Shown piece after piece: positions 25,617-43,662 of a stretch of DNA of 64,000 nt. The notes under the pieces are model-generated. The model did not search any database. It was not told the origin of the DNA and saw only the letters and a program-made list of their open reading frames with translations. Position numbers and translations under genes: made by a program. Within the stretch, counting starts at the first letter, position 1; each line of letters begins with the position of its first letter. The DNA is from Candidatus Zhuqueibacterota bacterium (GTDB lineage Bacteria > Zhuqueibacterota > Zhuqueibacteria > Residuimicrobiales > Krinioviventaceae): assembly GCA_016934825.1 (NCBI GenBank), contig JAFGSB010000084.1:1-64000 (forward strand), given 5' to 3'.

Positions 25617-28600
25617 TCATTCATACCGCAAAGCGGGAATCAGGTTGGTTTTCAATGAAGATCGGGCCGCAATATAAATCCATAAAAAGCCGAAAATAAA
25701 TAAAAACAGGACAGCGAGTACAATTGAAAAATAGGGTACAGATATACCGGGAGTGAAAAAAACCGGTAAGATAGAGATCAATGCCGAAACCGTTCCCGTT
25801 AGCAGGCCGGCAATCAGAAGAAAAATATGTTCGGACAATAACAATCTCATAATTGACTGACGACTGAAACCGACAGCGCTTAATAATGCCATCTCCCCCC
25901 GTCTTTCCAGAATATTTCTGAAAACAATAATTCCCAGACCAATACTTCCTAAAATTAAACCCAGTCCGCCCAGGGACAGGAAAATAGATAGATATGTATT
26001 TTCGACTTTGTTGAATTCAGCCAGTCTGACATAAGACGGGATCAATTCGAGACCGAAATTCTGCATAATAAAGGTTAAATGTTTTTCAAATATTTGCTGG
26101 TTCTCTTTCGGTACGTCCGCTAAAAACACATTATAACCGCCGGCGGAAGGAAACTGATCGATAAATAAATTCTCCGCGATCAACACATGCCCCTGAAATA
26201 TCGAATTTACCAGTCCGGCTATCAAAACCAGTTTCAACGGCTGCCCGTTTTCGTTTATATAATTAAGAGTATCACCTACGGCTTTTCCCAGGCCCCAGAT
26301 TATGACAGTTTCATCCGCTATGGCCGGAATGACATTGTCCGCATATTTCTTATTCAATTCAAGCCAGATATGTGATTTATCAATATTCCCGATTGTTTTG
26401 CTGAATGTGAACGCCCCCCTTTTGTCCAATTCTGCCGGATCGAGTCCCAGAATTGCCGGCTGTCTGACACGATTCAAGTTCAAACAACTGGCATCGTCGC
26501 CGGATTTTCTGCGCATTTGGACAAAATCGGCATTCTCAAATTCTTCAGTATCCAGTTCAAAAAATTTACGGCCTTTTTGACTGTTAAGGTCATATAAAAC
26601 CGGCGAAACGGTTTCCCCCCAGAAGGCAAATCCCCCGGTGCCGGATTCTCTTTTTTCCGCATGCAGAAGGCTGCCCTGCCGGTTGGCGCCGACGCCGATC
26701 ACTATAAATATCCCGCACGCCAGCAAGCCGATAATCGCCAGACTTCTTTTCCGGTTCCTGGAGTTGTTTCGAACGCCTAATCCGGATAGATTGAGTGAGC
26801 TGACATCCGTCTTTCGGGAAACACGAATTAAAATGAGATAAGAGCTACAGAGCCCGGCAATCAATAATAAAGATCCGGCGCCGAAAAAAACCGCAGAGGC
26901 TTCATGGCCCCGGCCGGGATCGGTAGTAATCAAAATAATAAAAACACCAACAAGACTAATCAGCGTTGTTAAAATGGCAATGTTGATCTTTTTCCTGGAA
27001 AGAGAATCATGGTATCTGCTTTGCGCCTGCTGCAGATCAACGATGGATTTTAGTGACTGCCTTTGAATGACCAGCCCGATTGCGATAAAAATAATAAAAA
27101 TACCTGCAGCGAACCCGATGAGCAGAGTCACCGGAACAATATGTAAAGTTAATGAAGACGTGCCGACAGCCCCCCGCCACAAAGAGCCAAGTCCGAAAAG
27201 GACAATCTGATTATACAATATGCCGAACATGATACCCAGTAACGAACCGACAACGGCAATAATAAAAATCTCTCCCAGGTATAATTTTTTGACTTGTCCG
27301 GTCTTGTATCCGACAGCGAGCAACAATCCTGTTTCGTTTGCGCGTTTTTCAATTCCCAAAATATATAGTAGACCGGTCAGTATTAACGCCGATACGATGA
27401 TAAAAAAGCTCAAACCGAGGAATAGCTGGCCAAAGTCGACAGCTTCTTTAGTGGCAATCAACCCCTCTTCGAGTACCGGCCGGAATACCAGACCAACCGA
27501 AGCGGGTTTCAGGTTGTTGAGTATTGCCGATTGAATTGATTCAGGATTTATACTACTGACAGGAAATCGGATAGCAGTTAATTTACCAAAACGATTTTCC
27601 CACAAATTTTGCGCTGTTAACAATGAAATATACGCTTTTGGCGTTCCACGATAGGTGTCCCAGTATTTTTCATCCTTTTGCCGTATTTTGTCCAGATCAA
27701 TGGGTATTCCCGGGTCCCAATCACGGCAGTTATCGGCATCCGCAAGCCCGGGAAATCCGGGCATCAGATGTTTATCCGCAGTTCGTCCCATGATAGGGAC
27801 AATTGCGGCTATTTTTAATGATGTGGATTTTTCCAATAATTGCCTTGCCGGCCCGGGTACATAATAATCGATACGGATCGTATCGCCTGTTTTGGCGCTC
27901 AAATCATCGGCAAGCCATTGATTTATAATAATTTGATCTTCTTTTAAATTTTTGTGAACAATGGGTTCACCCGGTGCGGAAATGAATGAATACGGTGTGG
28001 TTTTGCCGTCAACTTTGAATTGGTTGACAAAATATGTCAATATTTTTTTGAATTCAAGCCCTGTTTCATCAACGGCGGCTACAACGGCGGGTTCCAAAAA
28101 AATCCGGTCGGATGTCAATTCAAATGTCTTGAATTCCGGCAGTTCTGTAAATTTCAACCCGGCATCGGCCAGTTTGAAACTATGGTCTAAAAATTGTTCC
28201 AACATATTGATTGTCAGTGATTTATCTTTATTGTCGGCGACAAGCAATATATTGGCCCGGTTGTCCATATCCATGGTTTCGGATAAAAATGAAGCGGATA
28301 GAAAGACATTATACGGCGGGATCTGGTTTGTTTTCAAACTGAACCGGCCGAAATGCTTGTCCTGTATAATGGCTTTGATCGTCACGCGCAGTGCAACAGA
28401 TTTTTGGATATCGCGGGCAAAAGGGGCGTCAAGCGGAAAAAAATCGACAGAATTGATGCGCAGTAACAGATTATCGTTTACTTTTAGTCCCATTTTCAGG
28501 GCCAGCCGGTTATTTATGACGGCCTGGTTATCTTTTATCTGCTGAACCGGGACATTTTCAGGCGAAAGATCCCAGAAATTATTTTCAATACCCAATATTT

Positions 28601-28922
28601 GCACATTATTCAGCCGTGATTGTCCCCCTCCGGCAACAGCAATGCCATTCAGATTCAAAACTGATGCGCTTTTTACCTGTAAATCTTTTGCGATTTCTTT
28701 TGCAAGTTCCACCCTGAAATAACGGTCACCTGATGATATTGCGAATTTTGTTTTTCCAAGGCGGTCGAGGGTCATCTTTTCAAGGCTAAATCGTACGGAA
28801 TCGCCCACAATTAATGCGCCGATCAGTATTCCGGTACCGATGACGGTCCCCAAAATAACGGGTAAATGCTGGGTCCTGAAATAGAATAATAAACTGTTTT
28901 TTAATAATTTAAAAAAACTCAT
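25617..28922 (-). CDS. Large FtsX/MacB-type ABC transporter permease
   Basis: 1101 residues. An N-terminal membrane helix (about 19-42) is followed by a long periplasmic domain, a block of helices around 490-680 (two FtsX-type sets), a second periplasmic stretch (about 740-960) and a last three-helix FtsX block ending ARSSLKTNLIPALRYE. Thus two FtsX units are fused in one chain, as in YbbP-like permeases, so one gene could form the whole channel with the ATPase at 28935-29615. These proteins drive mechanical work on periplasmic or outer-membrane lipoproteins. It is last in the redox operon, 12 bases after the ATPase gene. Confidence 0.85.
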   Translation of the reverse strand: MSFFKLLKNSLLFYFRTQHLPVILGTVIGTGILIGALIVGDSVRFSLEKMTLDRLGKTKFAISSGDRYFRVELAKEIAKDLQVKSASVLNLNGIAVAGGGQSRLNNVQILGIENNFWDLSPENVPVQQIKDNQAVINNRLALKMGLKVNDNLLLRINSVDFFPLDAPFARDIQKSVALRVTIKAIIQDKHFGRFSLKTNQIPPYNVFLSASFLSETMDMDNRANILLVADNKDKSLTINMLEQFLDHSFKLADAGLKFTELPEFKTFELTSDRIFLEPAVVAAVDETGLEFKKILTYFVNQFKVDGKTTPYSFISAPGEPIVHKNLKEDQIIINQWLADDLSAKTGDTIRIDYYVPGPARQLLEKSTSLKIAAIVPIMGRTADKHLMPGFPGLADADNCRDWDPGIPIDLDKIRQKDEKYWDTYRGTPKAYISLLTAQNLWENRFGKLTAIRFPVSSINPESIQSAILNNLKPASVGLVFRPVLEEGLIATKEAVDFGQLFLGLSFFIIVSALILTGLLYILGIEKRANETGLLLAVGYKTGQVKKLYLGEIFIIAVVGSLLGIMFGILYNQIVLFGLGSLWRGAVGTSSLTLHIVPVTLLIGFAAGIFIIFIAIGLVIQRQSLKSIVDLQQAQSRYHDSLSRKKINIAILTTLISLVGVFIILITTDPGRGHEASAVFFGAGSLLLIAGLCSSYLILIRVSRKTDVSSLNLSGLGVRNNSRNRKRSLAIIGLLACGIFIVIGVGANRQGSLLHAEKRESGTGGFAFWGETVSPVLYDLNSQKGRKFFELDTEEFENADFVQMRRKSGDDASCLNLNRVRQPAILGLDPAELDKRGAFTFSKTIGNIDKSHIWLELNKKYADNVIPAIADETVIIWGLGKAVGDTLNYINENGQPLKLVLIAGLVNSIFQGHVLIAENLFIDQFPSAGGYNVFLADVPKENQQIFEKHLTFIMQNFGLELIPSYVRLAEFNKVENTYLSIFLSLGGLGLILGSIGLGIIVFRNILERRGEMALLSAVGFSRQSIMRLLLSEHIFLLIAGLLTGTVSALISILPVFFTPGISVPYFSIVLAVLFLFIFGFLWIYIAARSSLKTNLIPALRYE

Positions 28923-28934
28923 AAATTTAATTGA

Positions 28935-29615
28935 TCATTCTTTAATGAGTTGACCGTTCTGCAAACGGTAAATCGTTTCCATTTTTTTGGCCAGTTCCAT
29001 AGAATGCGTAACCATAATCAGTGCAATTTTTTCATCCCTGTTCAATTCCACCAGCAGTTGAACAAGATTTAAAGCCGTCTGCGAATCGAGGGAACCGGTA
29101 GGTTCGTCGGCCAAAAGTAAAGAAGGTCGATTGATCAGCGCACGTATTACTGCAACACGCTGACATTCGCCGCCTGATAATTGTCCGGGCCGGTATTCTT
29201 TTCTTGCGGATAAACCCACTTTATCAAGCAGATGGTTGGCCCGTGCCGTTGCTCCGGCCATATCCGGGTTTTGTTGCGCTAATACGGGCACAAGAACGTT
29301 TTCCAGAACCGAACATTGCGGCAGGAGATGATGCAGTTGAAAAATAAAACCGATTTCCCGGTTACGAAGCATTGATGTTTCATTGGAACTTATCGAAGTT
29401 ACATCCTTTTCTTCAAGTAATACTTTACCTGAAGTCGGGCGATCCAACGTGCCTATTATATTCAATAAAGTGCTTTTACCTGAACCGGAAGGTCCGACAA
29501 CGGCGATGGATTCACCGGCATCCACTCGCAATGAAATATCATTCAAGACAAGTAACCCCTCTGGATTAACCGGAGTCGAATAGTACTTGATCAAATTATT
29601 GACTTTAAGTAACAA
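28935..29615 (-). CDS. LolD/MacB-type ABC transporter ATP-binding protein
   Basis: 226 residues. Walker A GPSGSGKST, Q-loop GFIFQLHHLLPQ, signature LSGGECQRVAV, Walker B LLLADEPTGSLD and the switch histidine in MVTHS are all intact. FQ.H.LLP and EPTGSLD are typical of the LolD/MacB subfamily that pairs with FtsX-type permeases. The start is TTG, three bases after the stop of the glycosyltransferase gene, with an AGGGA upstream. It energises the 1101-residue permease encoded next. Confidence 0.93.
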   Translation of the reverse strand: MLLKVNNLIKYYSTPVNPEGLLVLNDISLRVDAGESIAVVGPSGSGKSTLLNIIGTLDRPTSGKVLLEEKDVTSISSNETSMLRNREIGFIFQLHHLLPQCSVLENVLVPVLAQQNPDMAGATARANHLLDKVGLSARKEYRPGQLSGGECQRVAVIRALINRPSLLLADEPTGSLDSQTALNLVQLLVELNRDEKIALIMVTHSMELAKKMETIYRLQNGQLIKE

Positions 29616-29618
29616 TTT

Positions 29619-30935
29619 TTATTTCCCTGGTTTGAGATTATTTGAAAGTATTTTTTCATAAACGTTGACCATATCAGCGGCCATTTTTTGTATACTAAAA
29701 AAATCATGCACGCTTTTAGCGCCCGATTCGCCGTATTTTCTGGCTCTATCGGGATTTAAAAGCAGTGTTTCAAGTGCGTCGGCCAGATTTTCGGGAGTAT
29801 TACGTTTATAAATAACACCCCCCCCTGTTTTTTCGATTATTTCCGGAAAAGCGCCGACATCGGGTTGTACGACAGGTATTCCTGTCGCGAATGCCTCAAG
29901 CAGATAGGTGCCGAATGCTTCACCTGCCGGAACCGGTACGGATAGAACGGATATGGATTTTAAAAACTCTTTCCGGTGGTTTTGATCAAATTCATGGAAA
30001 ATTCTGACATCTGCATATACATTTGATTCTTTTAAACGTCCCTGTATGTGTTTGATAAATTCCCCGTCATCAGCGGTATAACCACCTGTTATATAGAGTT
30101 TTAAATTGTTAAATCGTTCTTGTCTTTTCAGGATCAGAAACGCGTCCACCAGTATATCCAAGCCCTGTGACCGGTTCATTCTGGACAAAAATCCGATAAC
30201 AGGCGGATCAAAGGACAGGTCATTTTGTACGAAAACAGAAAGATCTATACCGATATGAACCGTATCGATTTTTGTTTCAGAAACAGACATTTTTTCCCGC
30301 ATCACTTTGGCATAGTAATTACTGACCGGGGTAAAAGACGCAACATCGGCGGCTTTTTCGGCCATTAAATGCCAGACCCGTTCCTGATATTCCGGTTCCA
30401 TGGGATCGATCCACTGGTTTTCATCCTGCAGGGAACACACAATCGGCGTACCTAATTCTTTTTTTATTTTACCGGCCAAACCAAGCAGTAACGCATTTGA
30501 CAGATGGATTATATCGGGCCTGGAATGTTCCTTTAACCAGTGCACCAGGTGTTCAAGCTCGGTTGACTGATTGCCCTCTTCGCCTTTTAACATGGAAATT
30601 GTCATATCTTCAAGCCCGACGGCGCTTGTCGATCCGGCTTTGTGAGCGGCAATATTTAACAAAAACCTGGAGTCGAACAAACGTTCCACCCAAACCGGGG
30701 CTTTTCGATAAATCGGCAATACCTGTTTTAAATAAGTATTGATCGCACCGTAAAAAACCGGTGTATCTCCGTATAATTTCGAATGCGGATCATCGATATT
30801 CAGCGGCAGATACATCGGCACGATTGATACATCATGTCCCAAATCGCGCAGTGCCTCAACCAGGGTATTATCCCGCATACAATTCTGGCAGTAAAATGTA
30901 GTACCCGATCCCGGAATGATGTGAACAATTTTCAT
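29619..30935 (-). CDS. Family 4 glycosyltransferase
   Basis: 438 residues in the GT-B fold. The N-terminal domain starts KIVHIIPGSGTTFYCQNCMRDN, a cysteine pair that marks one particular GT4 subgroup. The C-terminal donor domain has VIGFLSRMNRSQGLDILVDAF and the donor motif GEAFGTYLLEAFATGIPVV. It is cytoplasmic and uses a nucleotide sugar; donor and acceptor are unknown. Its ATG overlaps the stop of the propeller lipoprotein gene by four bases (ATGA), and the ABC ATPase follows after three, so it belongs to the redox operon. Confidence 0.87.
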   Translation of the reverse strand: MKIVHIIPGSGTTFYCQNCMRDNTLVEALRDLGHDVSIVPMYLPLNIDDPHSKLYGDTPVFYGAINTYLKQVLPIYRKAPVWVERLFDSRFLLNIAAHKAGSTSAVGLEDMTISMLKGEEGNQSTELEHLVHWLKEHSRPDIIHLSNALLLGLAGKIKKELGTPIVCSLQDENQWIDPMEPEYQERVWHLMAEKAADVASFTPVSNYYAKVMREKMSVSETKIDTVHIGIDLSVFVQNDLSFDPPVIGFLSRMNRSQGLDILVDAFLILKRQERFNNLKLYITGGYTADDGEFIKHIQGRLKESNVYADVRIFHEFDQNHRKEFLKSISVLSVPVPAGEAFGTYLLEAFATGIPVVQPDVGAFPEIIEKTGGGVIYKRNTPENLADALETLLLNPDRARKYGESGAKSVHDFFSIQKMAADMVNVYEKILSNNLKPGK

Positions 30936-32092
30936 AATTCAGCTCCGAAAACGTATAAACTGCCGTCTTCAGCGCCTATAGCGATAATTCCGTCAGCAAC
31001 AGCAGGTGAACCGGTGATGGCACTGCCGATCTCGTAGGACCATATTTTTTCACCGTTCAGCAGATTTATCATATACAGGTTACCATCTCCGGACCCGACA
31101 ATGACTTTATTGTCACAAATCACCGGCGAACTGTCCACTTCCCCGAGCGTGCGAAACATCCAGATCGCCTGCCCCGTTTCCCTGTCCACACAATGGACAT
31201 AATCATCCCGGGAACCCGCAACAACTCTTTTGTCATCCACGGCCGGAGATGAGAAGAACGGCGCGCCGTTTGTTTCATTCCCGTATTCCCAAATGACAGC
31301 ATTCGTCTGCAAATCAATACAGATTAGTTTATCATCATAATTCCCTAAATAAGCACAATCTTCGACAAGCGCGGCTGAACCGGCTATATAGGATTCGGTA
31401 TTGACAGCGGCCAGTTGCTTTCCTGTTTCAGTAGACAGCACATATAGATTGGCATCGCAGCCGCCAAATATGACACGATGACCGTCGGTTGCAGGGGCGC
31501 CGTTGATAAAACTTTCCGTCTCAAAACTCCATATTTTTTTACCGGTTTTCATATCCACGCAGTGCATGACATTATCATAACTGCCCACAAGGACACGGGT
31601 TGGTTGGCCCTCATGACCGACGACAATATTTGCCGAACCCATAATCCTGTCCTCCGTTTCGTATTTCCAGAGCAGTTGTCCGTTAACGGCGTTAACGGCA
31701 TATAAAAAACCGTCCATGGAGCCTGCAATTAGCGTTTGATTATAAACAACCGGGGGGGCCTCAACGGCATCTTCGGTCAAATAACTCCACACTTTGCTGC
31801 CGGTATTTCTATTCAATGCGTAAATAAAACCGTCACTGGAGCCAAAATACACCATACTGTCCTGGATGACCGGTGAGGATTTGATTTCATCATCTGTTTT
31901 AAAAGACCACAGTAAGTTGAGTAGATCCGGAAGGGTGCAACGGGCTGTGCCGGACAGCCGGGTATCTCCCCTGAACAGGTTCCAGTCATACTGTGAAGAT
32001 TGTATACTCTTAAGAGAATTGTTTTGCTCACCAGTACAACTGAAGAAAAATAAAATAATAAATAATAAAATTAACCTGATAATATATTTCAT
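30932..32092 (-). CDS. PQQ-like beta-propeller lipoprotein
   Basis: 386 residues with a lipobox ending FFSC near residue 19. The mature part begins YDWNLFRGDTRLSG and then runs through about seven or eight blades, each with a turn of the type YALNRNTGSKVWSY, YAVNAVNGQLLWKY, HCVDMKTGKKIWSF, HCVDRETGQAIWMF and YMINLLNGEKIWSY. This is the BamB-like PQQ repeat. I see no PQQ-dehydrogenase catalytic Asp/Glu pair or adjacent cysteine pair, so a bound cofactor is not implied. It is periplasmic and lipid-anchored. It overlaps genes on both sides by four bases. Confidence 0.87.
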   Translation of the reverse strand: MKYIIRLILLFIILFFFSCTGEQNNSLKSIQSSQYDWNLFRGDTRLSGTARCTLPDLLNLLWSFKTDDEIKSSPVIQDSMVYFGSSDGFIYALNRNTGSKVWSYLTEDAVEAPPVVYNQTLIAGSMDGFLYAVNAVNGQLLWKYETEDRIMGSANIVVGHEGQPTRVLVGSYDNVMHCVDMKTGKKIWSFETESFINGAPATDGHRVIFGGCDANLYVLSTETGKQLAAVNTESYIAGSAALVEDCAYLGNYDDKLICIDLQTNAVIWEYGNETNGAPFFSSPAVDDKRVVAGSRDDYVHCVDRETGQAIWMFRTLGEVDSSPVICDNKVIVGSGDGNLYMINLLNGEKIWSYEIGSAITGSPAVADGIIAIGAEDGSLYVFGAEL

Positions 32093-33663
32093 AATTCCTT
32101 TTCACTTTTAAATGAAAGTGCTCCGGTCGGACAGGCCTGCACACAAAGGTCAGCAACCTGCTTTAGTCCTTTGGATAATGTTTTATCAAACGGGACCTTG
32201 ATTTGTACGTTAAATCCTCTGCCGATAAATGTGAGGCCTAATTTTTCCTTTGCTCTTTCGGTTATTTGCACACATAATCCGCATTTGATACATTTACCGG
32301 TTTCATAGATAACACTGGAATGCTGGTCAATTATTTCAACACTTTTCCGATTAATATTGGCATAACGCTTCTGGTCGGCTCCGTATTCATCCGCATAAAG
32401 ACGCAGTTTACAGGTATCCGGTTTACGGCAGTCGCAATGCAAACATCGTGAGGCTTCGTTTACGGCTTCCTTTGCCCTGTAATCTCCGGAACTGTTTTGC
32501 GGCAGGATTCGTTTTCGATCGGAAGCCTGTGTCAACAATTGATCCAGGTCTTTCTGTTCCATTTTGCCGATCGAGGAATTGAACCGGGAGTTTTCACCGT
32601 TCAGTTGTTCGCCGTTTAAAAATTGATTTACAGAAATAGCGATCATTTTACCGTGCGCGGCGCTCCGTACAGCCATTTTGCTTTCCCGGATCGCGCTGCC
32701 GCCGGAAAATATACCGGTTTGGCTCGTGGTCATGGTTTTAGGATCAACAACAAATCCTTTTTGAGTGAATTCTATGCCATATAGGGCCGCAAGTTTATCA
32801 TCAATAACACCGGTTGTCAGAACAATAGCTTCATACTTTTTTTTCAGTTCGGAAACGAATATGTTCCTGCCGATTGTTATCTGCAATTTAAAAATCGCGC
32901 CAAGACTTTTTATAATATTGATCTCGGCGTCCAGAACACAATGGGGTAATTCTGCCGGGTCCACACCGTAGCGCAGCATCCCTCCCGCTTTACTGTTTTT
33001 ATCGTAAATATCACACTTGTGTCCATATTGAAGTAAATAATACGCCGCGGACAGGCCTGCCGGTCCCGACCCGACGATCGCGACTTTTTTGCCTGAGGAT
33101 TTCGCCCGTTCCGGTATAAATTGTTTTGCCTGCTCGAGATCAGCGTCGGCCGAGTATCGTTTCAGCAGGCAAATGGAAACCGCATCATCGATCTTTGCCC
33201 TGTTGCAGACTTTTTCACATGGCGCGGAACAGATACGACCCAGTACGGCCGGGAGGGCGATGTCTCGTTTTACGGTTTGTATGGCGCTTAACAGATCGCC
33301 TTCCTCAATTTGCCGGATCATCAGCGGTATATTCATGTGCGCCGGGCATCCTTTTTGACACGGCGCCTGACAATCACCGATATGTTCGCTTAATAGTAAC
33401 TCCAGAGCGTCTTTACGGGCTTCGCGCACCCTGTCGTTGTCCGTTTCAATGATCATATTATCCTGTACAAGTGCCGAACAGGAAGGCAGCAGCCTGCCGC
33501 TGTTTTTCTCTTCGACCACGCAGATCATACAGGACGTAAAAGGCTCCAGTCCTTCAAGGTAACACATGGTCGGAATAAAAATATCCAGCTCTCTGGCAAT
33601 CTGTAAAATTGTCTTATCGGGCTCCGCCTGTACTTTAATATTGTTTATCTGAATTTCAGGCAT
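32089..33663 (-). CDS. NuoG/GltD hybrid FeS-flavoprotein lacking the NAD(P)H domain
   Basis: 524 residues. [2Fe-2S] domain of NuoG type (Cys34, 45, 48, 62), then the His-Cys cluster (His93, Cys98, 102, 106). A GltD-like part follows with a second cysteine set (145, 149, 153), FAD site VGSGPAGLSAAYY (197-209) and the C-terminal FAD piece TGIFSGGSAI (316-325). The normal second Rossmann fold for NADPH is missing: only about 28 residues join the two FAD pieces. C-terminal FeS segments have Cys407-418, Cys458, 461, 464 and Cys507, 511. It resembles StnC/NfnB-type subunits of flavin-based bifurcation complexes without their NADP(H) site. Its partner is the NuoEF fusion directly upstream. Confidence 0.82.
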   Translation of the reverse strand: MPEIQINNIKVQAEPDKTILQIARELDIFIPTMCYLEGLEPFTSCMICVVEEKNSGRLLPSCSALVQDNMIIETDNDRVREARKDALELLLSEHIGDCQAPCQKGCPAHMNIPLMIRQIEEGDLLSAIQTVKRDIALPAVLGRICSAPCEKVCNRAKIDDAVSICLLKRYSADADLEQAKQFIPERAKSSGKKVAIVGSGPAGLSAAYYLLQYGHKCDIYDKNSKAGGMLRYGVDPAELPHCVLDAEINIIKSLGAIFKLQITIGRNIFVSELKKKYEAIVLTTGVIDDKLAALYGIEFTQKGFVVDPKTMTTSQTGIFSGGSAIRESKMAVRSAAHGKMIAISVNQFLNGEQLNGENSRFNSSIGKMEQKDLDQLLTQASDRKRILPQNSSGDYRAKEAVNEASRCLHCDCRKPDTCKLRLYADEYGADQKRYANINRKSVEIIDQHSSVIYETGKCIKCGLCVQITERAKEKLGLTFIGRGFNVQIKVPFDKTLSKGLKQVADLCVQACPTGALSFKSEKEL

Positions 33664-36012
33664 TTATATTACCTCAACGGCGTTTACGGGGCAAACCTGT
33701 CGGCAGGTGTCGCACTTTATGCATATATCCGGGTTTATTTTATGTTGTTCGTAAGGCTTAAAATCAATGGCATGAACCGGACAGTTTTGCGCGCAAATTG
33801 TACAGCCGATACATTCATCCGTGATAGAATATTTGATGAGCGCCTTACACTTTTTCGCACGGCAGATGCCGTTAATATGTTCCTCATATTCATGCCGGAA
33901 ATACCGCAAAGTGGTCAAAACAGGATTGGGTGCGGTTTTTCCCAAACCGCAGAGACTGCCCTGTTTCGTTTTGATTGCCAGGTATTCAAGATCATCAATA
34001 TCTTTTTGCACTCCGTTACCCTCGCACAGCCTGTCCAGAATGTCCAGCATGCGCCGGGTGCCGATCCGGCAAAATGTACATTTTCCGCAGGACTGGTCCT
34101 GGGTAAAGCTCAAAAAATAACGGGCAATGTCCACCATACAGTCGTTTTCATCCATCACCAGCAGACCGCCTGAACCCATCATCGCGCCGACATCATTCAA
34201 AGCCTCGAAATCGATTCCGGTATCGGCAAGTTCAGCGGGAACACAACCACCGGATGGACCGCCAATCTGTACGGCCTTGAACCGCCTGCCGCCGGCAATT
34301 CCGCCGCCGATATCTTCTACAATCTGCCGTATGGTTATCCCCATTGGGACTTCAATGAGTCCTCCCCGGGCGATTTTTCCGGCCAACGCGAATACCTTGG
34401 TGCCTTTGCTTTTTTCCGTACCCAGACCGGCAAATTTATCGGGTCCGTTGCGAAATATCCAGGGTATCAGGGAAAAGGTTTCCGTATTGTTCACAAGGGT
34501 CGGTTTTCCCCACAATCCTTTTTCCGCGGGAAACGGCGGCCTTATTTTGGGCATGCCTCTTTTCCCTTCTATCGACGCGATCAATGCGGTTTCCTCACCG
34601 CATACAAATGCGCCCGCGCCCTCTTTTACTTTTACGTCAAAAGAAAATCCGCTGTTCAAAATATTGTCACCCAGCAATCCGGATTGCCGGCATATATCAA
34701 GAGCTTCATTGACCCGTTTAACGGCCAGCGGATATTCGGCGCGTATGTAAAAATATCCTGTTTTCGCGCCGATTGCAAAAGCGGCAATGACAAGTCCTTC
34801 AATGATGCGGAACGGGTAAGATTCCAGCAGCATTCGATCCATAAACGCGCCGGGATCCCCTTCATCGCCGTTGCAAATAATAATTTTGTCGCCGTTATTA
34901 TTGTTTCTGACAATATCCCATTTTTTCCAGGCCGGAAATCCGGCTCCTCCCCTGCCACGCAATCCGCTTTCCTTAACAGAGGTAATAATCTGTTCCGGGG
35001 ACAGTTCCGTCAAACATTTTTTCAGCGCGGTAAAACCGCCGCGCTCACGGTATTCTTCCAAATCAATCGGATCGATCACTCCGGAAAGTTCCGTCGCAAT
35101 ATGCACCTGCGAACCTAAAAATGATGTGACCGGTTTATCACGGGTATCAAGCGGATAACGTTTCATCTCTCCGCCTGAACTGTCCGTTAAAACATTATGT
35201 ATAAAATGATTGATGTTATGAGTAACGGCAAAAAAACCTTTCGGTCTGAAATGCCGTCTGACGATATCATTGATTTCTTCCGCCTGCACATTCGAATAAA
35301 ATACGGGTTCTTTGCCCGGTAATGTTATTTCCAGCAGAGGCGTCTGGTGGCACATACCCACGCAACCGACACGTTTTACGGGAATCTGGATATGATTATC
35401 TATTAGGGTTTTTATTAACTCCTCCCGCACTTTGCCGCTCCCGCTGGCGACACAGCATGATCCCAGACCGATACGTATTTCACCGTTCACATTACTGAGC
35501 GGCTGTTCGGCCTTTTGGGGTTTGTGAGCGGTCTTTTGCGCGTATTTTTGAAAATCGTGAATAATTTGCGGAACGGTTTCAGGCTGAACATGACCATAGG
35601 TGATACCGTCAATCTGGACGACCGGGGCAAGTGTGCAGCAGCCCAAACACGAAACTTTGTGCAGGGTAAACTGTTTCAGCGGATCGGTATCATTGTTTTC
35701 CTGAATGTTGAGATTCCGCATGAATGAATCATAAACCCGTTCGGCGCCTTTGACATGACAGGCCGTACCGATACATATATTTATACCGTGCGCGCCAACC
35801 GGTTTATGCCGGAACTGGGTGTAAAAAGTCGATACCCCGGTAATGGATGCGGGTGTAATATCGGAAATTTCACAAACTCGCTGTAAAGCTTTTTCAGGTA
35901 AATATTTGTACCTGGATTGTATCGCCTGTAATATGGGTATGACCGAATCGGCGCCGGCGCCGATATCTTTTATAATAAAATCAATCTCGTTTAAATTTAT
36001 ATCCTGTTCCAT
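33664..36012 (-). CDS. NuoE-NuoF fusion with C-terminal ferredoxin (HydB/HndC/StnB type)
   Basis: 782 residues. Residues about 1-150 are NuoE with [2Fe-2S] ligands Cys80, 85, 122, 126. Residues about 180-250 are a second thioredoxin-like [2Fe-2S] domain (SCCVASGSG, Cys217, Cys221). Residues about 300-720 are NuoF: FMN/NADH motif GRGGAGFPAW (353-362), CNGDEGDPGAF, SLBB region and [4Fe-4S] set QSCGKCTFCRIGT. Residues 734-782 are a two-cluster ferredoxin (CIGCTICAQNCP, CIKCDTCRQVCP). It oxidises or reduces NAD(H) through FMN. HydB/HndC-like proteins carry all these parts except NuoE, which is usually separate. It abuts the hybrid flavoprotein gene with no gap. Confidence 0.92.
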   Translation of the reverse strand: MEQDINLNEIDFIIKDIGAGADSVIPILQAIQSRYKYLPEKALQRVCEISDITPASITGVSTFYTQFRHKPVGAHGINICIGTACHVKGAERVYDSFMRNLNIQENNDTDPLKQFTLHKVSCLGCCTLAPVVQIDGITYGHVQPETVPQIIHDFQKYAQKTAHKPQKAEQPLSNVNGEIRIGLGSCCVASGSGKVREELIKTLIDNHIQIPVKRVGCVGMCHQTPLLEITLPGKEPVFYSNVQAEEINDIVRRHFRPKGFFAVTHNINHFIHNVLTDSSGGEMKRYPLDTRDKPVTSFLGSQVHIATELSGVIDPIDLEEYRERGGFTALKKCLTELSPEQIITSVKESGLRGRGGAGFPAWKKWDIVRNNNNGDKIIICNGDEGDPGAFMDRMLLESYPFRIIEGLVIAAFAIGAKTGYFYIRAEYPLAVKRVNEALDICRQSGLLGDNILNSGFSFDVKVKEGAGAFVCGEETALIASIEGKRGMPKIRPPFPAEKGLWGKPTLVNNTETFSLIPWIFRNGPDKFAGLGTEKSKGTKVFALAGKIARGGLIEVPMGITIRQIVEDIGGGIAGGRRFKAVQIGGPSGGCVPAELADTGIDFEALNDVGAMMGSGGLLVMDENDCMVDIARYFLSFTQDQSCGKCTFCRIGTRRMLDILDRLCEGNGVQKDIDDLEYLAIKTKQGSLCGLGKTAPNPVLTTLRYFRHEYEEHINGICRAKKCKALIKYSITDECIGCTICAQNCPVHAIDFKPYEQHKINPDICIKCDTCRQVCPVNAVEVI

Positions 36013-36018
36013 ATAAAG

Positions 36019-37710
36019 CTATTTTTCACCTATACAATAAAGATTATCACTGCCGCGTATAAATATTTTTTTGTCCGCAAAAACCGGAATCGTCGAAACA
36101 TCTTCACCCAATTGTGCCGTATTGACCAGTGAGAATGTTTTGTCGGCTTTGAATATCTGCATATTGCCGTACAAATCCATAAGGTAGACATTTTCACCGA
36201 CCAAAATCGGTGAAGAATAAAACCCATTGTCAAAATCATGTAGCCAGTATACCGATCCGGTTTTCGCGTCAAGACAGGTCACAGCGCCATACCCGGACGA
36301 CAAAATCAAATATTCTTTTGTCGCGACCGGACTGGAGGCGTCGGGTAGATCGTCTTCATGTTCCCAGATAATCTCCGGCGTATCGCCGAGCTGGATGGCG
36401 GCCAGAATGGCATTTTCATTTGCGGCATATACTATACCGTCGGCGTATGCAGGTGACGATGCCACTTCTCCGCCCATACAATCCACACGCCACAATTCGT
36501 TTCCGGTTTTGGGATCGTAAGAAACCACAAAGGGATTGGCGCTCAAAATCAGTTCCATCCTTTTGCCGGTATTCACCAGGATTGGCGATGACCAGGTAAT
36601 GCCCATATCTCTCTGTACCTGCCAGACCGTTTTTCCGGTTGCGGCATCAAGTCCCATAACCGATGCGCCGTTACCATGATCATACTGGATGAGCAGCAGT
36701 CCCCGGTCTACAATCAGTGACGATGAATGACCATAATGATTATCCGGAACACCCAGATTTTTGCCCCAGATTTTATTTCCCCCGACATCGAAACATACCA
36801 GGTTACCGGTGGCAAAGACAGCATAGACATAACTTCCGTCGACCGCCATTGTCGGAGCGGCATACCCGGTATCTTCGGTTACATCCGGGCGTTCGGAGGG
36901 TGAACCGGGAATACCGGTTACCTGTCTTTGCCATATAATTTGACCGGAATTGTCGTCAAAGCAGTACACCTCTTCCGTGTTTTCGTCGGCGCCGGAAAGA
37001 AAAATTTTATTGTCCCAGAAAACGGGAGAATTAAAACCCGGTTTGGGTACCGGCGTTTTCCAGAGGATATTGACGCCGGATTCGCCATCCCATGTTTGCG
37101 GAACATTACTGTAGGCGGCATAGCCGATAGTGTACGGCCCCCGGAAATACGGCCAGTTCTTCAGAATATCCTTTTCATCGGGAACTTTATATTTTTTCAC
37201 CTGCTGTCTCTCAAAAGAGGCGGCTGACATTTCCTTTTGGGTCAGCAAGGCCAGAGCTACCGTTACAGATAAAACGATGATACCTGAGAACATAACCCAT
37301 TTTTGCGACAGCAGACGGTTTTCCCAGGTATCGGTTACGGGCTGCGGGAGTTCAGGCGTCTTTTGTTTGAGCTCACTCATTAATTTCAGGCAAACGAACA
37401 GAACGACAATCCCGGCAAACAGGATATACCCGCCGAAATTGATCTGCCATTGCTTGGTAAAATAAGCTTTACGGGCCAGCAAATCCAGGGAGCGTATCTG
37501 CTGGCGCAGAACGTCATCGTTCGGATTGGTATCGAGGTCCGCGTACAGTTTTGTCAGGGCCGGGCTGTTCAGGGGATCGTTGGATTTGAGTTGAAAATAA
37601 TTTAAAATGAAAAAGACACAAACCAGTAATGAAAAAATAGCGGCCAATACGGCAGTTCTTTTTAACATATTATATACAGCTAATTTATTATTTACTTTGT
37701 CGTTATTCAA
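36019..37710 (-). CDS. Membrane-anchored PQQ-like beta-propeller protein
   Basis: 563 residues. Hydrophobic helices lie near 16-37, 84-105 and 132-154, with a small hydrophilic loop between the first two. From about 185 the motif NWPYFRGPYTIGYAAYSN opens a PQQ-type propeller (VYCFDDNSGQIIWQR, GLDAATGKTVWQVQ, SYDPKTGNELWRVD, CLDAKTGSVYWLHDF). It should sit in the cytoplasmic membrane with the propeller in the periplasm. The start is TTG with AAGGAG nine bases upstream; the gene overlaps the end of the polyferredoxin gene by eight bases. Confidence 0.83.
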   Translation of the reverse strand: MNNDKVNNKLAVYNMLKRTAVLAAIFSLLVCVFFILNYFQLKSNDPLNSPALTKLYADLDTNPNDDVLRQQIRSLDLLARKAYFTKQWQINFGGYILFAGIVVLFVCLKLMSELKQKTPELPQPVTDTWENRLLSQKWVMFSGIIVLSVTVALALLTQKEMSAASFERQQVKKYKVPDEKDILKNWPYFRGPYTIGYAAYSNVPQTWDGESGVNILWKTPVPKPGFNSPVFWDNKIFLSGADENTEEVYCFDDNSGQIIWQRQVTGIPGSPSERPDVTEDTGYAAPTMAVDGSYVYAVFATGNLVCFDVGGNKIWGKNLGVPDNHYGHSSSLIVDRGLLLIQYDHGNGASVMGLDAATGKTVWQVQRDMGITWSSPILVNTGKRMELILSANPFVVSYDPKTGNELWRVDCMGGEVASSPAYADGIVYAANENAILAAIQLGDTPEIIWEHEDDLPDASSPVATKEYLILSSGYGAVTCLDAKTGSVYWLHDFDNGFYSSPILVGENVYLMDLYGNMQIFKADKTFSLVNTAQLGEDVSTIPVFADKKIFIRGSDNLYCIGEK

Positions 37711-38998
37711 GTAAAGACACTCCTTTTAATTCCAGCAGGCGTTCATGTTCTTTCGGACAATATTTGAAACAGCGTCCGCAGCTCAGACAGGCCCCTTTAT
37801 CGGGTTCATAGTCCAAACGTCGCCGCCATAATGTCAGATTTATTAATTTACTCATAATCACTACGGCTAAAAATGCGCCCAAAATCCACGACCCGGTTTT
37901 GAACCGTGATTGAACAAGAGCCGCCCGGTTGTATAATTCCGCGGTCGGCATTCCGGTTCCCCGAAAGGCCTCACTGAATTCGGTGGTGATTGTTGTCTGA
38001 CCGGTATCTTCCAGTCTGATTTGCTCCGCCACCTTAACAATATAATGATTTCGTGATAAAGGTACGGATAATTTTGAAAAAGCCCATCCGCCGGTTACTA
38101 TCATCAACGGCAGTAACAATAACAACAATATTAATTGACGTTTCCCTTTATCCGGTTCACCGGGATATCTTTCCGGCGTCGGTGTGTTAATGGCGTCGAA
38201 CGGGCATGAATCAGCGCATAAATGGCATTGAATACATTCGTCGGGTGTAATGGTCACATGACGTTTGGAAAGAACAGACGCCCATTTTAAAAGTACTCCG
38301 TACGGACATAAAAACCGGCAGTACGGCCTGGCAATAAATACACCTAAAAGTAAAACAGCCGTGCTGAAAATGAACATATTTTGATTGAACCCGAATCTGA
38401 AAAAGCCGATAAACGGATCATAACGGCAAATTAAAAATTCCGCCCCGGTAGCAGCAAACAGTACAGCCAGCCCCAGATACAGATACGGAATCAAACCCAG
38501 GACATGATTTAATCTGTTCGACTGTTTTTGCGGTTTGAGAATAACCAGATCCTGGATGGCCCCTAACGGACAAACACCGGCGCAAAAAGTCCTGCCGAAA
38601 AATAACGCGAAAATTAACGGCAGGGTAAAAAAGGCAATCACGACCAGCGGAACGACATAAGTTTTGTCAAAGAATGCCAGACTTATATTTTGTATCGAAC
38701 CGATTGCGCAAACACATCCTTTTCGGAAAAATCCGAAATATATTAAAGAAAAGATCATCAGGGAAAATATATATTTTCTGGACCTTTTTTTCAGGGCGAA
38801 ATACGATGATAAAAAAAGCGCAATTAACAGTACCGCGACATCCACGTATTCCCAGGAAACGGAACGGGGATAGGTTTTTACCGGCCCCGGCTGTGTATAG
38901 CCGGATTCAAAATCCGGTTTGGGAAACCGCTGAATCTGCGGATATGACTCTGTAATGAAGATAAAAATTAATAATATGAAAAGTATATTTTTTTTCAA
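37703..38998 (-). CDS. NapH/NosR-like membrane polyferredoxin
   Basis: 431 residues. A signal-like N-terminus (1-20) is followed by about six further membrane helices. Two FC..(V/L)CPxG motifs (GRTFCAGVCPLGAIQD at 136-150, ARPYCRFLCPYG at 223-234) and an earlier GCVCAIGS are the hallmark of the NapH/NosR/CcoG group. [4Fe-4S] ligands are at Cys255, 258, 261, 265 and Cys404, 407, 410, 414. The FMN-binding domain of NosR is absent. It should pass electrons between a quinone or cytoplasmic donor and periplasmic ferredoxin. The start is TTG, with GGAGAC eight bases upstream inside the end of the previous gene. Confidence 0.85.
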   Translation of the reverse strand: MKKNILFILLIFIFITESYPQIQRFPKPDFESGYTQPGPVKTYPRSVSWEYVDVAVLLIALFLSSYFALKKRSRKYIFSLMIFSLIYFGFFRKGCVCAIGSIQNISLAFFDKTYVVPLVVIAFFTLPLIFALFFGRTFCAGVCPLGAIQDLVILKPQKQSNRLNHVLGLIPYLYLGLAVLFAATGAEFLICRYDPFIGFFRFGFNQNMFIFSTAVLLLGVFIARPYCRFLCPYGVLLKWASVLSKRHVTITPDECIQCHLCADSCPFDAINTPTPERYPGEPDKGKRQLILLLLLLPLMIVTGGWAFSKLSVPLSRNHYIVKVAEQIRLEDTGQTTITTEFSEAFRGTGMPTAELYNRAALVQSRFKTGSWILGAFLAVVIMSKLINLTLWRRRLDYEPDKGACLSCGRCFKYCPKEHERLLELKGVSLLE

Positions 38999-39604
38999 TC
39001 AAACGTCTCCGCTTTCTGATGTGGCTGTCGGACTTTCTCTTACTTCACCTCTGAATAGATAAGGATTGTCGGCAGGAACACGCACCCAGGCGTCAGCCGG
39101 ACAATTTAATGCTATGTTACATTCGTTACAGTTTACACAAATATCATGGCGCACCTGTAAAAAGAGGGAACCGTTGCCGAAGGAACCGCATCCCTTGACA
39201 CATTTGGCGCAGCCTATACATAATTTCTCATCGATGGTATATTCAAAATAGGGATTTTCGACAAAAGTTCTTTTAATGGCGTTAGTCGGGCATAACTGGC
39301 TTTCCGCCGCGGTGTCCAGCCTTTTTGTTCCGGGTTGATGGTAACCGCCGCATAATTTGCAATAACCGCACATGGCATACGCGTGAACACACTTGACCGC
39401 CGAGGGATAAAGCACACAATTTATGGCGCATTTTTCACATTGGATACATTTATCCGGGTCGATCTGCCAGACCATATCACCCTTTGTCGATCTGGTGATG
39501 GTAAAACCCGCAATCCCGCCCAGGGCAAGGGCCGCGGTCGTATTCAACCCGTTTTTGATAAAACTTCTTCTGTCATGATATTTTGGGGATTTATCTTCAG
39601 GCAT
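38999..39604 (-). CDS. NapG-like periplasmic ferredoxin with Tat-type leader
   Basis: 201 residues. The N-terminus has DRRSFIK (residues 11-17) followed by a hydrophobic stretch, a Tat export signal. Cysteines fall into four [4Fe-4S] sets: 53/56/59/63, 72/79/82/85/105, 129/132/135/139 and 156/159/162/168, some shared between sets as in eight-cysteine ferredoxins. NapG has the same number of clusters and pairs with NapH, whose relative is the next gene with no gap. The likely role is an electron wire on the periplasmic face. GAGGA lies six bases before the ATG. Confidence 0.87.
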   Translation of the reverse strand: MPEDKSPKYHDRRSFIKNGLNTTAALALGGIAGFTITRSTKGDMVWQIDPDKCIQCEKCAINCVLYPSAVKCVHAYAMCGYCKLCGGYHQPGTKRLDTAAESQLCPTNAIKRTFVENPYFEYTIDEKLCIGCAKCVKGCGSFGNGSLFLQVRHDICVNCNECNIALNCPADAWVRVPADNPYLFRGEVRESPTATSESGDV

Positions 39605-39855: not shown

Positions 39856-40854
39856 TTAAACCTGCCGATCATTTGTTTTTTGAAATATCCTGACACAGCC
39901 CGCTTTAGGATCGAGCACATAAATCAGCCCGTCCGCATCGGCGGCTAAATCGAGGCCCACAGTTCCACGTGTAAAAAGTTTCGGCGGTGCGACTACGGAC
40001 ACAAATTCGCCGATCCGGTTATGAACCTTTACACGTTCCAGTCCTTTTTCGCTGGTCACAAACGAACCGTCCGGCAGTAATGCGATATGGGAAGGATTGC
40101 AGCATCCGCTGAATCCCTCAAGCCGCATGGATGCCGTGCCCCAAAAAGACCGCAGATCGCCGTTCGGATTATAATTTTCAAGCGACTGTCGACCCGGATT
40201 GACGACCCAGATAAATCCATCGGGATCAATAGCGACATCGAAATAGGGGCTGGGAACGATAAAACCCGGTATGTCCCGCGCCTCGTCTTTATCGCCGATC
40301 CTGTTCAACAGTGTTCCGGATTTATCGTAACGCAATACAATCTGTTTACCGGCATCGGCGACGTATACGTTTTCGGGGGAAGCGGCAATGGATGTGATAT
40401 AGGAATTTTCTTCCAAAGGCTCCCAGCCTGCTGTTCTTTTTCCGGTGAAATCATAGACCTCAACATGGTTTAATATACCGAGATAAATGGTAAATTTTTT
40501 ATCCACAGCAATACAATTGGCGGAAGCCGGCAGGCTGAAAGAAGAGTGAACCGCACCCTCGGCATCAAAAATTATCACACTGCTGTCGCCGGTAACATAT
40601 AATTGTTTGAGACTGTCAACCGCAATACCGTAATTATTTTTCAAACCGGTGTTTATTTTTTTAATTTCACTGTAATGGATCAGATTAGCGGGTATGTCCA
40701 GAAAAGCTTCAATATTGTATTCATAAGGATTTTCGCTCTCGGTAACCTGTTTTCTGCTTAGTGAACGATACCCTAAAAAGGTCAATCCGGCGGCGATCAC
40801 GATAATAATAAATCCGGATAAAATATTTTTAACACTATTCGATTTATTATTCAT
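39856..40854 (-). CDS. Membrane-anchored NHL-type beta-propeller protein
   Basis: 332 residues from the ATG at 40854, chosen over a TTG four codons earlier because GAGGTG lies five bases before the ATG and overlaps the upstream stop. One N-terminal membrane helix (about 10-29) is followed by NHL-like blades (GIAVDSLKQLYVTGD, VAIDPDGFIWVVNPG, LDLAADADGLIYVLDP). A distinctive block reads GFSGCCNPSHIALLPDG then TSEKGLERVKV; the adjacent cysteine pair and histidine could be a metal or redox site. It differs from the PQQ-like propellers around it. Periplasmic orientation is likely. Confidence 0.8.
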   Translation of the reverse strand: MNNKSNSVKNILSGFIIIVIAAGLTFLGYRSLSRKQVTESENPYEYNIEAFLDIPANLIHYSEIKKINTGLKNNYGIAVDSLKQLYVTGDSSVIIFDAEGAVHSSFSLPASANCIAVDKKFTIYLGILNHVEVYDFTGKRTAGWEPLEENSYITSIAASPENVYVADAGKQIVLRYDKSGTLLNRIGDKDEARDIPGFIVPSPYFDVAIDPDGFIWVVNPGRQSLENYNPNGDLRSFWGTASMRLEGFSGCCNPSHIALLPDGSFVTSEKGLERVKVHNRIGEFVSVVAPPKLFTRGTVGLDLAADADGLIYVLDPKAGCVRIFQKTNDRQV

Positions 40855-40862
40855 GTAACACC

Positions 40863-42278
40863 TCAAATTTCAATACAAACCATTTTTTTGGAATCACGAA
40901 GCAGCATTCTTTTGTTGGCAACGGCAAGGGGTCCCCATGCGTCGGTGCCGTCAAGAATTTTTACTTTTGCCAGTTCTTTGTACTCATCCGTACTGGCCTG
41001 AATAACCGTCAGTACACCTTCATCACTCAAAATAAAAAATTTGTTATCAACCATAATAAAAGGACCCAAACCGAACCGGTTGGTTTTACCGCTTGTCCAG
41101 ACAAATTGAGTAATGTCGTCCGGATCACAGCAAACATATTGATTTCGCATCGGTCCGGCGTCTTTGGGAAGCACACAGAACAAATGACCCTGATACAGGA
41201 TGGGTGTCTGCTGTTCCGACGCCAGGCCGTCCTTGGGTGCTATTTTTTGTAACGTTTGCAGATTATATATGCCGTTGGCATATTCTAATTGAAACATCAT
41301 TGAACCGGCGCCATATCCCGCGGTAACAAAAATTTTTCCGTCTTCGAGGAAAACGGGCGAAGGCGCAATGACGTTCTGGTTCCAGTCCGGTGATTCCCAC
41401 AAAATTTGTCCGATATCTTCACCTTCCGCTGAAATACCGACTATCCCCCCTATCGCGCAATAGACATACATTTTTTTGCCGTTAAAAGTCCACGGCATAA
41501 TCGAAGAGTGGGACATTTGCCAGTTATTCGGATTCGGGGTTTGCCAGGCAATCTCTCCGGTCCGGCAGTTGACGGCAATAATCAGTGATGTGCCGCCCGG
41601 GGCAATGACGGCTACCGAATCCTCAAGTAACGGGCATTGGCCGGTATACCAGAGCGGAACCGTTGTATTGTAATCCTGCACCAGGTCAATTCCCCATCTG
41701 AAATTCCCGGAATCGGCGTCAACACACATGACATGGCATTGCGGTCCGATCGTAACGACGTACCTGTCATTGACGGCAGGTATAGTACGCGACATACCGT
41801 GATTTCTTTTCATGGGATTGTTATACCATCGCCGCCAGATATCTTTTCCGTCTCCCAGTGATAAACAACGCAGGGCATCGGCGCGGTTAATTTCATCATA
41901 ATCCATTATATAGACACGGCCGTTATATATCGCCGGGCCGGCATGCCCCTCACCCAGATCAACAGACCATAATATTTGCGGACCGGAATCTCCCCATTTC
42001 AAATCAACATGTTCGTTGCTTTTATTATCAAAGTTGATTCCCCGGAAACGCGGCCACTGTCCAATTATATCTGCGGCGATACCGTCAAATCTTTCAAAAA
42101 ATTCCCCGATATTTACCTGCGAAACCAGACTTTTTAAATTTTCCGGCTGGTTGTCCATACCGGGTATACTTTCCGTAAAATGACTGGTGGGATCATAAAA
42201 AAACCATCGGCCCATTATTGCTATGGCAGCAAAAATTAAGGATATGAAAATGATTTTGGAAATGAATCTATAATTCAT
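40863..42278 (-). CDS. Membrane-anchored PQQ-like beta-propeller protein
   Basis: 471 residues. One N-terminal membrane anchor (about 7-26) precedes a short linker and then QWPRFRGINFDNKSNEHVD, which opens the propeller. Blade motifs include LRCLSLGDGKDIWRRW, VMCVDADSGNFRWGID and IIAVNCRTGEIAWQTP. Features that recur in this group are PGGTS and GAGSMMFQL. There is no enzymatic motif. It is periplasmic, held at the inner membrane. No clear ribosome site precedes the ATG. The gene is separated by 91 bases from the previous propeller gene, the widest gap in the operon. Confidence 0.83.
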   Translation of the reverse strand: MNYRFISKIIFISLIFAAIAIMGRWFFYDPTSHFTESIPGMDNQPENLKSLVSQVNIGEFFERFDGIAADIIGQWPRFRGINFDNKSNEHVDLKWGDSGPQILWSVDLGEGHAGPAIYNGRVYIMDYDEINRADALRCLSLGDGKDIWRRWYNNPMKRNHGMSRTIPAVNDRYVVTIGPQCHVMCVDADSGNFRWGIDLVQDYNTTVPLWYTGQCPLLEDSVAVIAPGGTSLIIAVNCRTGEIAWQTPNPNNWQMSHSSIMPWTFNGKKMYVYCAIGGIVGISAEGEDIGQILWESPDWNQNVIAPSPVFLEDGKIFVTAGYGAGSMMFQLEYANGIYNLQTLQKIAPKDGLASEQQTPILYQGHLFCVLPKDAGPMRNQYVCCDPDDITQFVWTSGKTNRFGLGPFIMVDNKFFILSDEGVLTVIQASTDEYKELAKVKILDGTDAWGPLAVANKRMLLRDSKKMVCIEI

Positions 42279-43635: not shown

Positions 43636-43662
43636 ATAATCCTCTTTTTTAGTGATTATTCG

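Follow-up and report, generated by a model that had tools for sequence, protein, structure and literature searches.

The 64,000-nucleotide stretch of DNA analysed here (the window) carries on its minus strand a gene for a truncated StnC/NfnA-type BfuA subunit, with a reading frame free of stops, and directly upstream of it a gene for a fused NuoE-NuoF protein (the fused core). Both belong to a longer run of genes for membrane-bound and exported proteins (Table 1). In the truncated subunit, Pfam places Fer2_4 at residues 3-76, Fer4_20 at 98-178 and an FAD Rossmann fold from residue 192.

Table 1 Genes of the cluster and features of the truncated subunit, with positions in the window
Feature	Position	Strand	Remarks
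Glycosyltransferase, ABC ATPase and FtsX-like permease	25617-30935	minus	Frequent end of the cluster
Propeller lipoprotein	30932-32092	minus	Immediately downstream of truncated BfuA, 4-base overlap
Truncated StnC/NfnA-type BfuA subunit ("GltD-del")	32089-33663	minus	524 aa
NuoG-type [4Fe-4S] cluster I, C-terminal	32116-32304	minus	C458/C461/C464/C511; cluster II Cys gone except C507
CxxCxCx5C cluster motif	32410-32445	minus	C407/C410/C412/C418; 89/89, C418 88/89
Closing FAD piece, aa 317-352	32608-32715	minus	GIFSGGS; S323 in place of the GGD Asp
Junction, aa 286-316	32716-32808	minus	Site of the missing ~149-residue NADP(H) Rossmann domain
First FAD-binding piece, aa 192-285	32809-33090	minus	GSGPAGLSAA; E238 at the StnC R239 position
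GltD-like domain with two [4Fe-4S] sites, aa 98-178	33130-33372	minus	Pfam Fer4_20; H94 just ahead; ligands 89/89, K168 85/89
NuoG-type [2Fe-2S] domain, N-terminal, aa 1-76	33436-33663	minus	Pfam Fer2_4; C34/C45/C48/C62; Cys 89/89
Fused NuoE-NuoF (BfuC-BfuB / StnA-StnB-like)	33664-36012	minus	782 aa; C-terminal 2x[4Fe-4S]
Membrane-anchored PQQ-type beta-propeller	36019-37710	minus	3 predicted TM segments; cluster-conserved
NapH/NosR-like membrane protein	37703-38998	minus	Two CxxxCP and two [4Fe-4S] motifs; possible partner in electron transfer
Exported ferredoxin (Tat RR)	38999-39604	minus	16 strongly conserved Cys, room for 4x[4Fe-4S]; NapG/NrfC-like layout
Anchored NHL-repeat protein	39856-40866	minus	Cluster-conserved
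Anchored PQQ_2 propeller	40863-42278	minus	Cluster-conserved
Two exported PQQ_2 propellers	42370-44883	minus	Conservation less strict

The preliminary description of this sequence had proposed a GltD-like flavoprotein without its NAD(P)H-binding domain, and Pfam, glycine motifs, alignment spacing and structure prediction all agree with it. The Pfam model Pyr_redox_2 aligned over only the first 31 of its 291 positions, indicating that the pyridine-nucleotide part is absent. The protein has a single GxGxxG-type motif, at residue 198, and of the two Rossmann folds that mark GltD/NfnB proteins (FAD and NADPH) the FAD fold alone is present. The top NCBIfam model, PRK12814 (657 aa), matched far under its cut-off in two pieces, the better covering residues 4-286. 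The closest PDB relatives were A subunits from bifurcating complexes of the Stn/Nfn type, which gave separate matches flanking their NADP(H) domain. The AlphaFold (AF2) model of the window protein (pLDDT 93.2, pTM 0.89) had 9bov_A, 8oh5_C and 9n5u_A as its top three Foldseek matches (TMq 0.88, 0.86 and 0.88), and NfnB, GltD and DPD reached only TMq ~0.45. The model thus has the fold of the StnC-type structures except for a clean loss of the NADP(H) Rossmann domain.

We aligned 89 truncated proteins with 16 genomic full-length relatives and StnC. The spacing from G285 to F319 was 13-48 residues (mode 34) in the truncated proteins versus 181-187 in the genomic full-length relatives; from this difference, about 149 residues are missing, so that the deletion proposed earlier is real but larger than the ~130 residues first estimated. 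It was found in 89/89 truncated-family members and in 0/16 genomic full-length relatives. A diverged but complete second Rossmann domain was not found in the alignment: none of the 89 members has a second nucleotide-binding glycine motif past residue 230, and the full-length relatives keep the second domain. Without an NADP(H) domain, here or in any of the 89, Stn/Nfn transhydrogenase activity is excluded, as the preliminary description had held for a simple NADPH transhydrogenase. Past the junction, the alignment rows resemble what comes after the NADP(H) domain in the full-length relatives, a similarity which suggests that the domain was excised between two similar "A-x-G" strand ends.

The deletion is not unique to this assembly. 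A single scan of GTDB genomes matched 340 relatives, of which 80 loci were kept by similarity to the query, a sample therefore weighted toward its relatives; all 80 share the deletion. By record title they come from Aminicenantes, KSB1, Planctomycetota, Kiritimatiellae/Lentisphaerota, Bacteroidota, Cloacimonadota and others, and truncated homologs with the deletion also occur in genomes related to the window source. Nearly all of the genomes compared are MAGs. The truncated form was found in 12 of 149 sampled Planctomycetota genomes (2 of the 12 being seeds) and in 1 of 148 sampled Bacteroidota genomes (the seed). In 25 of the 148 Bacteroidota genomes the matching open frames were 657-821 aa long, and all of those fetched retain the domain. 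No PRK12814 member above the curated cut-off was found in the phylum of the window. In a tree built with the junction columns removed, a single branch (SH-aLRT 100) parted 43 truncated from 17 full-length rows. The domain was apparently lost once, anciently, and the truncated form is now in several bacterial phyla, a single origin that holds within the query-weighted sample.

The deletion is accompanied by a selective pattern of retained and relaxed residues. The [2Fe-2S] ligands, H94/C98/C102/C106, C145/C149/C153, C407/C410/C412 and C458/C461/C464/C511 are invariant among the 89 members, and C418 (88/89) and K168 (85/89) nearly so. K168 aligns with StnC K170 and E238 with StnC R239 (numbering checked against PMC10482914); K170 is a ligand of the cluster adjoining the FAD in StnC (PMC10482914). 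The ligands of the GltD-like domain would split into H94/C98/C102/C153 and an FAD-proximal set, C106/C145/C149/K168. The FAD motifs are likewise kept, GxGPxG at 98-100% and GxGPxG, PGG, the G of ATG and FxGG together at 94-100%. The earlier statement that both FAD pieces look intact thus stands for GxGPxG, the ribose acid, PGG, ATG and F(A)GG, but not for the residues on the isoalloxazine side, whose relaxation it had missed. The N5-side Arg (StnC R239, NfnB R201) is present in 15/89 truncated versus 17/17 full-length proteins and is Glu (E238) in the window, and its aromatic neighbour is gone along with it; the Asp of GGD is present in 35/89 versus 17/17 and is Ser (S323) in the window. In StnC, the R239A variant is nearly inactive (PMC10482914).

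The electron path of StnC runs FAD-C7-C6-C5-C4-C3-B1-FMN, with C1 and C2 off the path; the cluster nearest the FAD is used solely for exchange with it, and the off-path clusters matter only in assembly (PMC10482914). By elimination from this path, the truncated family would have retained the on-path clusters, and its losses (C-terminal cluster II and the FdhF-like part) would be confined to off-path ones. Cluster II is also absent in T. sibiricus NfnA and in 12/17 full-length rows. As a separate observation, C507, the last cysteine of cluster II (region aa 454-516), is present in 85/89 truncated versus 5/17 full-length proteins. The pattern of kept and released residues points to a flavin that has kept its link to the clusters while being released from NADP(H). 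Judging occupancy from the ligands and the binding motif, we consider it likely that the window protein binds FAD. The earlier proposal that Fe-S clusters are the sole exchange route of the FAD goes beyond these data; the exposed FAD face once used by NADPH may now contact a quinone, some other small molecule or a membrane protein.

The best PDB relatives of the fused core were 9bov_B, StnB (8oh5_B) and 9n5u_B. Its FMN/NAD site, GRGGxG with N381/D383/E384/D386, is conserved in 52/52 members, with E384 and D386 corresponding to StnB E184 and D186; the proposal that NAD(H) chemistry is left to the NuoF-like partner is upheld by these residues. Also conserved in 52/52 are C642/645/648/688 (B1 cluster), C734-C774 (the C-terminal ferredoxin-type clusters) and the BfuC [2Fe-2S] site, C80/85/122/126. 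In the thioredoxin-like N-terminal [2Fe-2S] site of BfuB, C187 and C217 are found in 52/52, C186 in 39/52 and C221 in 38/52. The 13 members with a variant motif have S for C186, mostly with C at 182, and one cluster of the core may thus differ in them. From its sequence, the pair very probably has a Bfu-type core as defined by Schut 2022 (PMC9304861), with BfuC and BfuB fused, a fusion left out of the preliminary description, as was the conserved membrane and periplasmic Fe-S module described below.

Upstream and downstream of the pair, one gene order recurs with minor changes in KSB1, Aminicenantes, Kiritimatiellae and Bacteroidota: propellers, NHL-repeat protein, Tat Fe-S protein, NapH/NosR-like protein, propeller, fused core, truncated BfuA, propeller lipoprotein, glycosyltransferase, ABC and FtsX. 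Where the flank reaches 7.5 kb or more upstream (44 loci), the NapH/NosR-like gene is present in 36 cases and the Tat Fe-S gene in 31. The NapH/NosR-like protein has C95, C97, both CxxxCP and both [4Fe-4S] motifs in 39/39 members. It scored 46.9 bits (E 2e-12) against TIGR02163 (NapH/MauN), below the family cut-off of 213, and the layout of its cysteines is NapH/NosR-like; its predicted structure is modest (pLDDT 75), Foldseek found no solved relative in the PDB, and by sequence the ferredoxin part alone matches a solved structure. The Tat Fe-S protein has 17 Cys, 16 of which are kept in 34-35 of 35. A search of the cluster proteins for the haem motif CxxCH returned only one match, which lies inside a [4Fe-4S] motif of the NapH/NosR-like protein. 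Two further residue patterns lie in the anchored proteins. In the propeller at 40863-42278, C138/C215/C468 are conserved in 34/34 and H160/H182/H257/C383 in 33/34, a Cys/His set that suggests binding of a metal or cofactor; the NHL-repeat protein has a vicinal pair, C255-C256, in 36/36.

The membrane gene and the truncated subunit also co-occur. Across 60 related genomes, 10 have both, 3 the truncated subunit only, 1 the membrane gene only and 46 neither (Fisher p 4e-8, a value that overstates independence because the genomes are related). The one membrane-only genome has a contig break at the fused core, just before the expected place of the truncated gene. Two of the three truncated-only cases (L028 and L029) have contigs that end within the fused core, and genome G040 has the truncated subunit without a NapH/NosR-like gene. 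A check of seven more genomes placed the membrane gene at a distance from the pair in five, and in the other two, those of L066 and L103, no NapH/NosR homolog was found. On a contig from a Caldithrix-labelled MAG (L027, positions 1-1833; contig shared with L041), the Tat Fe-S gene is directly followed by a fused-core fragment with the membrane gene missing, either a real loss or a misassembly.

The explanation that we favour is that the truncated BfuA is the electron-input/output arm of a Bfu (HydABC/StnABC-like) complex, in which the sites for FMN, NAD(H) and ferredoxin would all lie in the fused BfuC-BfuB. Enzymes of this family couple NAD(H), ferredoxin and a third substrate tightly in one reaction (PMC9304861). 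The truncated arm would retain the StnC wire B1-C3-C4-C5-C6-C7-FAD, minus the domain that brings the FAD to NADP(H), and the FAD would be a flavin terminus exchanging electrons with another third partner. The leading candidate for it is the NapH/NosR-like protein three genes upstream, through its cytoplasmic [4Fe-4S] part; on gene order and co-occurrence, we give this assignment even odds. From there, electrons could go on to quinone, to the exported 4x[4Fe-4S] protein or to both. The likely direction is confurcation into the membrane, with NADH and reduced ferredoxin oxidised at the core and electrons passing through the wire and the FAD to a membrane acceptor (menaquinone), the reverse direction being less likely. 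The potentials of the three are ~-280 mV for NADH, ~-500 mV for reduced ferredoxin and -74 mV for menaquinone (PMC9304861). As a whole, this explanation, in which we infer FAD occupancy, bifurcation, complex formation, direction and acceptor, has a probability of roughly 0.5. We hold more tentatively, at somewhat less than even odds, that it describes a widespread and so far undescribed Bfu type, in which NADH and reduced ferredoxin would feed a domain-stripped FAD arm, the NapH/NosR-like protein and then an exported 4x[4Fe-4S] carrier and beta-propellers, tying confurcation to periplasmic redox.

The pair also occurs in a second setting. In L076 (265-7326) and L111 (7647-16118), the fused core and truncated BfuA are followed by genes for a NifS-like cysteine desulfurase, an ArsF-like protein and an ArsG-like (DsbD_2) membrane protein, the last a candidate alternative membrane partner for the same BfuA arm. 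This placement away from the membrane genes of the window would also fit an FAD that serves another cytoplasmic substrate (a quinone head group, flavodoxin, thiol carrier or metabolite), with the membrane module separate and merely co-inherited, as would the L066 and L103 genomes. However, NapH/NosR co-occurs with the pair even when unlinked, as in the L111 genome, which has a NapH/NosR-like cluster on a different contig, and the cluster has no conserved substrate-specific enzyme; we regard this alternative as rather unlikely.

The relaxed N5-side Arg and GGD Asp could instead mean that the FAD is unbound or redox-dead, the GltD-like half being a structural remnant and electrons leaving the NuoG-like wire from an Fe-S cluster to the next subunit; StnC itself has off-path clusters needed just for assembly (PMC10482914). 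Such a remnant, present in several phyla, would be expected to erode as the off-path cluster II did, but the FAD motifs are 94-100% kept and the FAD-proximal ligands C106/C145/C149/K168 persist in 85-89 of 89, which makes this reading unlikely, and somewhat less probable than that of another substrate. Domain fission is frequent among redox enzymes, and a separate subunit might bring the NADP(H) domain in trans, leaving a transhydrogenase; no conserved gene within the cluster encodes a Rossmann NAD(P) domain, however, and the N5-side Arg required in StnC has been lost with its aromatic neighbour, so that this is very improbable. An assembly or gene-calling artefact, or a frameshift, is ruled out for practical purposes, as the junction recurs in all 89 proteins, which represent many genomes and many studies.

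Taken together, a bifurcation-type enzyme has shed its third-substrate domain and kept the entire wire to the flavin, and hence its third substrate must have changed. In Schut 2022, 17 BfuB clades have no third substrate assigned to them (PMC9304861), and for the truncated BfuA the conserved cluster supplies testable partner candidates. If the membrane link of the favoured explanation is true, it would be a new route by which anaerobes spend NADH and ferredoxin on the cell envelope. Our search of the open-access literature found no paper on the truncated BfuA or its gene cluster, which is conserved and apparently undescribed.

Among known systems, the closest are StnC of Sporomusa ovata StnABC (8oh5) and NfnA of NfnABC (9bov, 9n5u; Nfn-Bfu Type 1), which share the N-terminal [2Fe-2S] domain, HxxxCxxxCxxxCP, CxxCxCx5C, GltD-type clusters with a Lys ligand, the FAD motif, the NuoG-type C-terminal cluster and a StnB-like partner core. 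Unlike them, the truncated family has lost the NADP(H) Rossmann domain, has relaxed the N5-side Arg and the GGD Asp, and has neither an FdhF-like C-terminal domain nor cluster II (which T. sibiricus NfnA also lacks); in addition, BfuC and BfuB are fused, and NapH/NosR-like and Tat Fe-S genes are linked. The PRK12814/NF009454-like proteins of Bacteroidota (~655 aa; L141-L151 and L156) share the layout except for the missing domain, which they keep, and no StnB-like neighbour was found for them within the fetched flanks. HdrA of heterodisulfide reductase is a precedent for a thioredoxin-reductase-type FAD exchanging electrons with Fe-S clusters (PMC9012536), but it has its own inserted ferredoxin domain, bifurcates at the FAD and belongs to another sequence family. 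The periplasm-feeding NapGH, NrfC and NosR modules likewise place a NapH-like membrane protein beside a Tat-exported 4x[4Fe-4S] protein; the proteins of the present cluster fall outside those families by curated cut-off, and here the module is coupled to a Bfu-type pair and beta-propellers.
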